This document shows, in pieces, positions 56,509 through 58,831 of a stretch of DNA of 64,000 nucleotides. The notes beneath the pieces are model-generated. The model saw nothing but the letters and a program-made list of their open reading frames with translations, made no database searches and was not told the DNA's origin. Positions within the stretch are counted from its first letter, which is position 1. The number at the start of each line of letters is the position of its first letter. The DNA lies in assembly GCA_023251135.1 (NCBI GenBank), contig JAHEZJ010000007.1, positions 20,488-84,487 on the forward strand. Reading direction: 5' to 3'. This stretch comes from Flavobacterium sp. GTDB taxonomy: Bacteria; Bacteroidota; Bacteroidia; Flavobacteriales; Flavobacteriaceae. Both the position numbers and the translations under genes were made by a program.

Positions 56509-57042
56509 ATGATTTTAATACAATTCACAGGATTATCGGGTTCAGGTAAAACGACATTGGCTGAAAATGTTCGTCAGTTGTTGGTGGAAAAAAACTATAA
56601 AGTAGAGATAATTGATGGCGATGTCTATCGAAAAACAATCTGTAAAGACCTGGGATTTTCCAAGGAAGACCGCTGTGAAAACGTCAGACGGCTTTTTAAT
56701 GTCGGACGAAATTTTGTGGTGTCGGATACCATTGTTTTGATGTCAGTCATCAATCCGTATGAAAATTTGAGAAATGAGTTGAGAAATCATCAGTTTGTCA
56801 GAACGGTTTATTTAGATTGTTCCATCAATAACTTAATTAAAAGAGACCCAAAAGGACTGTATAAAAAAGCATTGTTACCCGACAGTGACCGTGACAAAAT
56901 AAATAATTTTACCGGAATAAGTGATGTTTTTGAGGTTCCCGTAAACGCCGATTTAGTACTGAAAACCGATTTCGAAACGGTTTCTTTTTCAACCCATAAA
57001 CTATACGATTTTATTATAGACAGTTTGCCTGATTTGGCTTAA
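56509..57042 (+). CDS. cysC: Adenylylsulfate kinase (APS kinase)
   Basis: Phosphorylates APS to PAPS, the sulfate donor. The 177-residue protein has P-loop GLSGSGKTT (8-16), IIDGDVYRKTICKDLGFSKEDRCENVRR (the APS-binding block with DGD and the Arg/Asn pair) and the lid region DPKGLYKKAL. No ATP sulfurylase (cysD/cysN or sat) is nearby. Start at ATG 56509; an upstream GTG at 56482 would add a lysine-rich tail. It is followed by the hydroxylase and sulfotransferase genes on the same strand. Confidence 0.94.
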   Translation: MILIQFTGLSGSGKTTLAENVRQLLVEKNYKVEIIDGDVYRKTICKDLGFSKEDRCENVRRLFNVGRNFVVSDTIVLMSVINPYENLRNELRNHQFVRTVYLDCSINNLIKRDPKGLYKKALLPDSDRDKINNFTGISDVFEVPVNADLVLKTDFETVSFSTHKLYDFIIDSLPDLA

Positions 57043-57169
57043 CGTTTAAGGGTCGCAGGTTTTCAAATTCTAACTGTTTTACTTATTTCTTTGATGGTAA
57101 AGCGTTTGTAAAATTTATATATTTACAAGCCCCAGGAATACTTACTAATTTAATCTTTTTAAAACGCAT

Positions 57170-57853
57170 ATGAATCCTTCTTCGAGTAAACTTCCCGTTT
57201 CTTTTTCAATAGATAAATTGCAGAAAGAATTCGCTTTATGTGAAAACGATTTATGGACGCCTCATTTTAATACCGGCCGCTACGAAGGCAATTGGACAAG
57301 TGTGTCTTTAAGATCACAGTCGGGTTTGATAAACGATATTACTTCTTTTGCCAACGAAGGTTATAAAAATACGGAGCTGCTGGATCGGTGTCATTATTTT
57401 AAAGAGATTATGGATTGGTTTCAATGTGAAAAAGAGGCTGTACGTTTGCTTCGGTTAGGACCTCACAGCGAAATAAAAGAGCATACTGACAATGATACCT
57501 CTTATGAAGATGGCTTTTTTCGAATTCATGTTCCGATCATAACAAATCCTGACGTATTTTTTTATGTGGATAAAAAACTGGTTCCTATGAAAATGGGGGA
57601 ATGCTGGTATGCTAATTTTCAGCTTCCGCATAGCGTAGCAAACAAAAGTGCTGAAGCTCGTATCCATCTCACGTTGGATTGTATCCGAAATGAATGGTCG
57701 GATCAATTATTCACAGAGATGGGGTTTGATATTCATTATTCCCGAAAAAAGGAGCAGTATTCTGAGGAGATGAAACAACAGATTATTGCAGAACTTTCCA
57801 GAAATCCGACGGCAGCAGGAGCCCAGATTATTGCCGATTTACAATCCAAATAA
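57170..57853 (+). CDS. Aspartyl/asparaginyl beta-hydroxylase domain protein
   Basis: 227 residues, cytoplasmic. The Asp_Arg_Hydrox fold is shown by RLLRLGPHSEIKEHTDND, with iron ligand His105 (and Asp107 as HTD), the second ligand His154 (QLPHSVANKS), and the 2-oxoglutarate-binding Arg164 (ARIHLTLD). Such enzymes use Fe(II), O2 and 2-oxoglutarate to hydroxylate an amino-acid residue. The N-terminal 90 residues (FNTGRYEGNWTSVSLRSQSG) probably shape the substrate site. The sulfotransferase gene follows 9 bp downstream. Confidence 0.9.
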   Translation: MNPSSSKLPVSFSIDKLQKEFALCENDLWTPHFNTGRYEGNWTSVSLRSQSGLINDITSFANEGYKNTELLDRCHYFKEIMDWFQCEKEAVRLLRLGPHSEIKEHTDNDTSYEDGFFRIHVPIITNPDVFFYVDKKLVPMKMGECWYANFQLPHSVANKSAEARIHLTLDCIRNEWSDQLFTEMGFDIHYSRKKEQYSEEMKQQIIAELSRNPTAAGAQIIADLQSK

Positions 57854-57862
57854 GAGCTGAAA

Positions 57863-58831
57863 ATGAAAAATAAAAATCATCCTTTATTTAATTGGATTCC
57901 CTATAAGTTGATTGAGAAAGAAAATGAGGTTTATCTGGAATGGCTGTATCTGGGCGACAAAAGGTATATTGATCCTTTTTTTGATGAAACCATTTCTAAA
58001 TGTAAAAGCCATGCGTATAATTCCAGTTCGTTTAAAGCCGTTAGTACGGTCGAAAATTTAATCGAGTGGTCTGAGGAGCTTGCTTCGGTTGAGTTAAAAG
58101 CTTTGGTGTTTCATGTTTCGAGATGCGGATCTACAATGTTAAGTCAGTCTCTGGCTACTTCGACTGAAAACATCATGATTTCGGAAGCACCTCTTATCGA
58201 CGAAATTTTAAGAAGTCACAATTTTGGCTTGGAGAAAAAAAGTGCACTTTTAAAAGCATTGCTAACTTTCTTAGGTCAGAAAAGATTTCCGGAGCAACAG
58301 AATTTAATTGTAAAACTGGATGCCTGGCATATTTTTAAAGCCACTTATCTGAGATCGATATTCCCGGAACTGCCTTTTGCTTTGCTTTACAGAAATCCGA
58401 CAGAAGTTTTAAAATCACATCAAAAAATGATGGGAATGCATATGGTTCCGAATTTACTGCCTCCTGAGGTTTTTGGAATTTCCGCTAAAGAAATTAGTGA
58501 AATTAGTTTCCAGCAATACGGAGCCCTGGTGCTGGAGAAATATTTTCAGGGCTTTCTGGATTTTTATAAAACCGATCAAAATGTTGTAAAACTCAATTAT
58601 AACGACGGAATGAAGAGTGTCATTGAAAAGTTTATCTCCTTTATGGCAGTCGATTATAGTGCTGATGAACTTGAGGGAATGTACGGACGACTTCAGACAC
58701 ATTCTAAAAATGAAAAAGCAGTTTTTACAGGGGACTCCTTTAATGAAGAAGTTTTAGAGATCGATTTAACAGAGGTAAACAGTTTGCATGAGAGGCTGGG
58801 AAATATGCTGTTAGAGGACGCAGCACATTGA
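57863..58831 (+). CDS. Sulfotransferase family protein
   Basis: 322 residues. The PAPS 5'-phosphosulfate loop is HVSRCGSTMLSQSL (84-97). The 3'-phosphate site is ALLYRNPTEVLKSH (173-186) with Arg177 and Ser185. The other parts fit the P-loop sulfotransferase fold (KLDAWHIFKATYLRSIFPELPF). No signal peptide. It sits 9 bp after the beta-hydroxylase gene, which suggests translational linkage and a common substrate. PAPS could come from the cysC product. Confidence 0.88.
   Translation: MKNKNHPLFNWIPYKLIEKENEVYLEWLYLGDKRYIDPFFDETISKCKSHAYNSSSFKAVSTVENLIEWSEELASVELKALVFHVSRCGSTMLSQSLATSTENIMISEAPLIDEILRSHNFGLEKKSALLKALLTFLGQKRFPEQQNLIVKLDAWHIFKATYLRSIFPELPFALLYRNPTEVLKSHQKMMGMHMVPNLLPPEVFGISAKEISEISFQQYGALVLEKYFQGFLDFYKTDQNVVKLNYNDGMKSVIEKFISFMAVDYSADELEGMYGRLQTHSKNEKAVFTGDSFNEEVLEIDLTEVNSLHERLGNMLLEDAAH

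Follow-up and report, generated by a model that had tools for sequence, protein, structure and literature searches.

A hydroxylase–sulfotransferase–APS kinase cassette of Flavobacterium that may modify the C-terminal asparagine of tail-collar proteins

Dedicated cassettes for protein sulfation are already known from bacteria. In the RaxX–RaxST system of Xanthomonas, a case of protein tyrosine sulfation, a sulfotransferase that depends on 3′-phosphoadenosine 5′-phosphosulfate (PAPS) is genetically paired with its protein substrate, according to the available part of its description (PMC6637879). A similar pairing seems to underlie three consecutive plus-strand genes in a 64,000-nucleotide stretch of DNA from Flavobacterium sp. 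(assembly GCA_023251135.1, contig JAHEZJ010000007.1, positions 20,488 to 84,487 of the forward strand), here called the window. The genes, at 56509–58831, encode an adenosine 5′-phosphosulfate (APS) kinase, a 2-oxoglutarate hydroxylase of family PF05118 (OHase) and a PAPS-dependent sulfotransferase (ST). RaxST and ST are alike in the Arg and Ser of their PAPS motifs and in a His/Glu base between them. Unlike Rax, the cassette includes a hydroxylase that would make the presumed acceptor, and its presumed substrate is a collar protein. Neither a RaxX precursor nor a RaxAB exporter was recognized beside ST on reading the flanking open reading frames (ORFs) of at least 80 residues, the family scans covering the cassette genes and two neighbors. 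We propose, with a probability of roughly 0.57, that OHase hydroxylates the C-terminal Asn of chromosomal tail-collar (PF07484) proteins, that ST sulfates the resulting hydroxyl, and that the cassette thus modifies a protein.

The hydroxylase (57170–57853, 227 residues) scores 61.3 bits against PF05118 (Asp_Arg_Hydrox), for which the gathering cut-off is 22.6. Its presumed iron ligands are H105 and D107 of an HTD motif (57482–57490) and H154 (57629–57631), and R164 (57659–57661) presumably binds 2-oxoglutarate in the manner of R735 in human AspH (PMC6817910); all four residues are invariant in homolog alignments. AspH bears the same family name as OHase and shares this arginine. Its iron site, however, consists of two histidines only, His679 and His725, with no acidic ligand, in contrast to the H-T-D...H site of OHase with its invariant D107. 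AspH also acts on EGF-like-domain substrates and has a TPR domain that is absent from the 227-residue OHase. These comparisons draw on the portion of the AspH account that was available (PMC6817910). Because OHase carries the HTD motif, we reject its membership in eukaryotic AspH proper, and "Asp/Asn beta-hydroxylase" would seem, judging by sequence, to be a family name only. A phage origin is also rejected, since 50,697 phage records gave just weak partial matches in three. The closest solved relatives of OHase by sequence are of the L-proline cis-4-hydroxylase (4p7w) and proline 3-hydroxylase (1e5r) type, enzymes whose substrate is free proline; 4p7w ranks first, at E 5e-8, or 3e-19 with a profile. 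Unlike these free-proline hydroxylases, OHase is distributed in step with collar genes and with the Asn at the end of their products.

The APS kinase (56509–57042, CysC-like, 177 residues) is the presumed supplier of PAPS to ST. It scores 157.6 bits against TIGR00455, above the equivalog-domain cut-off of 138.7, and matches PF01583 at E 1.4e-41 and the best of the solved APS kinases at 3.2e-33; its P-loop, GLSGSGKT, lies at 56530–56553. The sulfotransferase (57863–58831, 322 residues) begins 9 bp past the OHase stop. In its 5′-phosphosulfate-binding loop, HVSRCGST (58112–58135, containing R87), the residues H, R, C, G, S, and T are invariant in an alignment of 10 sequences, and R87 is replaced by His in one distant homolog (L002). 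The 3′-phosphate-binding motif, RNPTEVLKS (58391–58417), contains the invariant R177 and S185. E108 (58184–58186), also invariant in homolog alignments, is a candidate catalytic base; the accessible part of PMC6637879 describes such a base, His or Glu, located between the PAPS motifs. Family scores and residue checks thus confirm the first-pass annotation of this locus, which had read from the letters three consecutive genes, a hydroxylase with its HTD/His/Arg set, a sulfotransferase with both PAPS loops, and the 9-bp gap between the last two.

ST has the fold and PAPS-binding residues of PAPS-dependent sulfotransferases. The window copy scores 18.4 bits against Sulfotransfer_3 (PF13469), below the gathering cut-off of 27; relatives reach 29.7, 31.9, and 35.2 bits, and another falls slightly short at 26.8. 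Tyrosylprotein sulfotransferases (TPSTs) act on tyrosine, in the Golgi, and we know of no hydroxylase partner for them. Structure comparison places the AlphaFold model of ST closest to this class, human TPST1 and TPST2 (5wrj, 3ap3) being 14% identical to ST. The relationship is drawn from the predicted model and not from the profile search of solved structures, in which none of the four matches to E 1 was a sulfotransferase above chance; one was a polyketide synthase chain (E 0.57).

The proposed target is suggested by the last residue of the collar proteins, which typically end in ...(F/Y)PSRN. Among 70 distinct collars in stretches that contain OHase, ST, or both, 67 end in Asn (63 as RN), two in Asp, and one in Ala; the Ala-ending collar belongs to an Azospirillum cluster, and no OHase was found in that stretch. 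A second Bacteroidota family, probably Sphingobacteriaceae (code f3), allows a comparison with controls. Here 55 of 58 collars from OHase-containing genomes end in Asn, two in Asp, and one in Ser, versus 7 Asn, 6 Asp, and 22 Pro among 49 collars from genomes that lack both OHase and ST (26 genomes in each set; Fisher 8e-19 for Asn, relatedness ignored). At least one fetched collar ends in Asn in 26/26 and 6/26 of these genomes, respectively. Taken together, Asn and Asp ends make up 57/58 versus 13/49, in keeping with the earlier suggestion that an Asp or Asn residue is the target. The OHase-containing set represents 26 of 27 such genomes, G968 contributing no collar. The control set represents 26 of 38 collar-containing genomes; ten were left out (collar ORFs weak, partial, or very long), and G984 and G1000 had no scored collar. 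In both sets the counts cover mainly the fetched stretches of each genome. Pro is the commonest end of the OHase-less collars (L188–L216), 17 of the 22 cases being RP, and may point to another C-terminal feature.

A scan of the last 25 positions and of 173 alignment columns for association with OHase ranks the terminal Asn first by far. The best non-terminal column reaches 4e-6, compared with 8e-19 for the terminus, and internal Asn or Asp residues are therefore rejected as the best correlate. On a collar tree built with the last eight residues excluded, about six of eight independent, supported pairs that differ in OHase agree in Asn, none disagree, and two tie (median p 0.031, range 0.031–0.0625). 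Terminal Asn is present with or without ST, a PhyH-type oxygenase, or a short HEAGH ORF in the locus, so these three are rejected as its drivers, and OHase is the best correlate of terminal Asn among the factors examined. Peripla_BP_6-like and formyltransferase-like proteins are rejected too, since both also occur in control loci with Pro-ending collars.

The same observations bear on two other explanations. OHase might act on the collar Asn while ST sulfates some other site within the system, such as a Tyr or Ser in the collar or a partner protein. That Asn tracks OHase irrespective of ST would fit such a division of labor, as would the resemblance of the ST fold to tyrosylprotein sulfotransferases; the genes for OHase and ST are nevertheless adjacent, overlapping, or fused, and two clusters without ST have a carbamoyltransferase gene next to that for OHase. 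We consider this alternative improbable. It is also conceivable that OHase and ST modify another molecule made or handled by the clusters, such as a peptide or something that the Peripla_BP_6-like protein binds, with Asn serving sorting, assembly, or another enzyme. The clusters do contain Peripla_BP_6-like, formyltransferase-like, PhyH-type and, in some cases, lasso-type genes, the closest solved relatives of OHase are proline hydroxylases, and an ST homolog occurs in an Agrobacterium nonribosomal peptide synthetase (NRPS) cluster. The presence of the first two proteins in control loci with Pro-ending collars, the independence of Asn from PhyH and the HEAGH ORF, and the rank of the terminal residue as the strongest OHase correlate all speak for the collar instead, and make action on another molecule quite improbable.

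Flavobacterium itself shows a parallel pattern. In genomes with a single collar, drawn from those with listed collar positions and not from all, the end is RN in 17/17 with ST and in 6/17 fetched without it (p 9e-5). One further genome without ST, set apart from this comparison, has OHase beside an RN-ending collar (L181). Where collars lie elsewhere in ST-containing genomes, 34 of 45 end in Asn; of the remaining 11, all but one come from triple clusters (L084, L085, L088, L092).

Collars and the cassette also co-occur. A genome-wide search with PF07484 finds a collar in 57 of 60 Flavobacterium genomes with ST and in 100 of 338 without; of the three exceptions, two genomes are 70% and 81% complete, and the third is the window's own. 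In f3, collars are present in 24/24 genomes with ST and 41/177 without, and lie inside the fetched ST stretch in 20 of the 24. OHase, searched with profile A4 in 80 genomes of that family, occurs in 24/24 with ST, in 3/41 with a collar but no ST, and in 0/15 without a collar. For 25 of 27 OHase genes a collar lies no more than 10 kb away; the other two are those of G968 (near a contig end) and G1071. Three distant ST homologs (two from Sphingomonas, one from Gemmatimonadaceae) and the two Flavobacterium cassettes positioned outside the SIR2–TrmH interval are also near tail-collar genes, and a Pseudoalteromonas plasmid carries OHase with three collars and no ST within the stretch. The missing substrate of the cassette is thus probably a chromosomal tail-collar protein. 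These proteins, of the "tail fiber" or microcystin-dependent type, match PF07484 and T4 gp12, the short tail fibre protein that is their solved relative (1ocy). Aligned collar ORFs mostly start at the collar motif, with no obvious signal peptide by eye, which makes cytosolic modification plausible.

Other genes recur in these clusters: Peripla_BP_6-like, formyltransferase-like, and PhyH-type proteins, and a short HEAGHLA ORF, read as metallopeptidase-like, two copies of which have no Pfam match. In one locus APS kinase and a PhyH-type oxygenase are fused in a single ORF (L141, 10300–11787). Lasso-peptide-type genes (B2, PqqD, asparagine synthase, and in some an HPr-kinase-like gene) cluster with collars and ST in L066, L067, L110, and L112; since such genes are present in some clusters only, lasso-type machinery is rejected as the main partner. 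Phage-tail-sheath genes (PF17482, above cut-off) lie near collar clusters in L152 (5192–6688), where OHase is also near, and L154 (15071–16699). Several Flavobacterium collars adjoin a giant protein with repeats that we take to be SprB-like (L061, L077–L080, L089, L095, L096).

The pairing of OHase and ST is conserved well beyond the window, as the neighborhood survey proposed for the locus makes clear. Of 398 Flavobacterium genomes, 60 have an ST ortholog; ST is also found in 2 of 199 family-sampled genomes (the window's own and one distant 32% match), in 12 of 395 phylum genomes (ten of genus code g1, plus G686 and G858), and in 24 of 201 f3 genomes. Among 34 close-relative loci (L032–L065; 32 titled Flavobacterium, one Flavobacteriaceae bacterium, and one [Flexibacter] sp.), APS kinase is upstream of ST in all and OHase adjoins ST in 33; one of these loci, L053, is from an F. 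johnsoniae isolate. The exception is F. ranwuense (L060, 6023–6715 and 7583–7848), whose OHase gene next to ST, on the APS kinase side, is fragmented; a short way upstream it has an intact 41% paralog with two collars at its side. Of the 24 f3 loci with ST, 22 have OHase within the fetched stretch: it adjoins ST in 20, is separated from it by APS kinase in one, and in one is naturally fused to it in a single ORF of 547 residues. The two remaining genomes, in one of which ST is a distant, low-scoring homolog (L144), have OHase elsewhere, next to collars. Fusions of PF05118 with a different, Sulfotransfer_3-type enzyme are found in Diaphorobacter (630 residues) and as a 596-residue open frame in Asticcacaulis, in which both families score above their cut-offs and the record annotates the sulfotransferase half only. 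(In part of the fetched relative stretches ORF coordinates exclude the stop codon, and the corresponding ORF lengths are too small by one residue.) Adjacency across families, together with fusions that include other sulfotransferases, shows hydroxylase–sulfotransferase coupling to be recurrent.

Three independent housekeeping or natural-product genes could in principle have come together by chance. The place of the cassette is mostly fixed in the window's clade, lying between SIR2 and TrmH and away from collars in 32 of the 34 close-relative loci, and synteny there could be plain inheritance. The pair recurs, however, outside the SIR2–TrmH interval and in further families and phyla, where it is found with different gene orders and also fused, and OHase and ST co-occur genome-wide. 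Chance or clade-only synteny is therefore rejected as an exceedingly improbable explanation.

Three side observations concern relatives of these loci. An ORF of about 125 residues, secreted-looking and of unknown family, lies between ST and TrmH in L037, L045, L050, L052, L056, and L062, and is also seen in L022 and L029; it is not favored as substrate because none is seen between ST and TrmH in the window. An Azospirillum plasmid protein (NZ_CP039640.1; L110, 7911–8948) annotated as "aspartyl/asparaginyl beta-hydroxylase" aligns with 95% of ST at 20% identity, and no hydroxylase match was seen for it. The distant ST homolog of an Agrobacterium plasmid (NZ_CP115844.1; L109, 7965–9017) lies within an NRPS cluster with cysD and cysN, and a sulfated peptide product is therefore possible there.

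A different kind of evidence comes from five f3 stretches that have OHase and collars but no ST (L149–L153). In two of them (L149 and L151) a carbamoyltransferase (PF02543 plus PF16861) is encoded directly upstream of OHase; in L150, ST and APS kinase are present in the same genome, about 1 Mb away. Members of this family such as NodU, CmcH, and TobZ carbamoylate hydroxyl groups. The presence of such an enzyme at OHase where ST is missing would follow if different transferases can cap the hydroxyl that OHase produces, and suggests that hydroxylation followed by capping is a general strategy at protein C-termini.

The genes are seen to be adjacent and in one case fused, to exchange ST for a carbamoyltransferase, and to co-vary with Asn; from these observations we infer the reactions, their order, the carbon attacked, and the role of the collars. 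APS kinase would convert APS, supplied by CysDN elsewhere in the genome, to PAPS. OHase would hydroxylate the C-terminal Asn, or in a few cases Asp, of small chromosomal tail-collar proteins, most likely at the β carbon, although this position is suggested by the family name and the nearest solved relatives are proline hydroxylases. ST, TPST-like in build, would then sulfate the new hydroxyl and create a strongly acidic C-terminus; a carbamoyltransferase may take over this capping role in some related clusters. The hydroxylate-then-sulfate scheme of the first-pass annotation thus gains support from pair conservation, the fusion, and the carbamoyltransferase beside OHase; its reactions stay predictions, and no substrate was found in the window organism.

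That absence is among several points that weigh against our proposal. The window's genome, 99.94% complete, yielded no collar with the PF07484 family or with a profile to E 10, and no DNA match to the collar locus of the close relative G593; the organism's own substrate is therefore unproven. In addition, the 58 collars of OHase-containing f3 genomes are mostly near OHase, those elsewhere having been read only for G1071. In Flavobacterium genomes without ST, 18 of 35 collars end in Asn, and Asn alone is therefore no proof of modification. The window locus carries OHase next to ST with APS kinase, as the collar-linked module does, in a genome where no collar was found. It is a carrier of the enzymes of the predicted system, whose own substrate gene was not found.

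Either the 79-contig assembly lacks a collar locus, or a recent loss removed it, or the cassette has another substrate in this organism, so that here the substrate may be a protein that is lost, unassembled, or different. It is possible that, in the window lineage only, the cassette took a new substrate, such as another surface protein or a secreted giant adhesin, after loss of the collar, an explanation compatible with collar modification elsewhere. The genome has no Peripla_BP_6 match either, yet the three genes are under purifying selection: dN/dS (nonsynonymous over synonymous divergence) is 0.02–0.09 relative to F. collinsii, indicating strong constraint. Measured to L033, dN on the window and F. 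collinsii branches is 0.066 and 0.062 for APS kinase, 0.064 and 0.072 for OHase, and 0.102 and 0.092 for ST, so that the cassette evolves at about the same rate on both. The usual position of the cassette, away from collars, would also fit a new substrate. Against it, 57 of 58 ST-containing Flavobacterium genomes, the two incomplete ones excluded, have a collar, the window's being the sole exception, and the 79-contig assembly may lack a locus beside long repeats. A change of substrate in this lineage is unlikely, though it deserves some weight.

Parts of the collar module have appeared in print. A table of halotolerance-associated gene clusters in Pontixanthobacter and Allopontixanthobacter contains lasso B2, nucleotidyltransferase, sulfotransferase, aspartyl beta-hydroxylase, PqqD, and asparagine synthase genes with near-consecutive numbers and includes a tail fiber protein, with no mechanism in the available part of the paper (PMC10040529). 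In narrow literature searches, and among the papers listed from wider ones, no account of collar modification enzymes or of such a system was recognized from titles and the beginnings of abstracts. The product proposed here would be O-sulfo-β-hydroxyasparagine, or its O-carbamoyl counterpart, at the collar C-terminus, formed by a hydroxylase–sulfotransferase–APS kinase module of several Bacteroidota families and, in parts, of Gemmatimonadota and Pseudomonadota; we give this reading, of a new modification, about even odds. To our knowledge, neither sulfation of an enzymatically hydroxylated C-terminal Asn nor, as remarked when the locus was first read, sulfation of β-hydroxylated Asp or Asn has been described. 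If the proposal is correct, sulfating a hydroxyl that an enzyme has placed on Asn would be a new protein-modification chemistry, and would offer a way to approach the genes for chromosomal tail-collar proteins, which are widespread in bacteria and unexplained.

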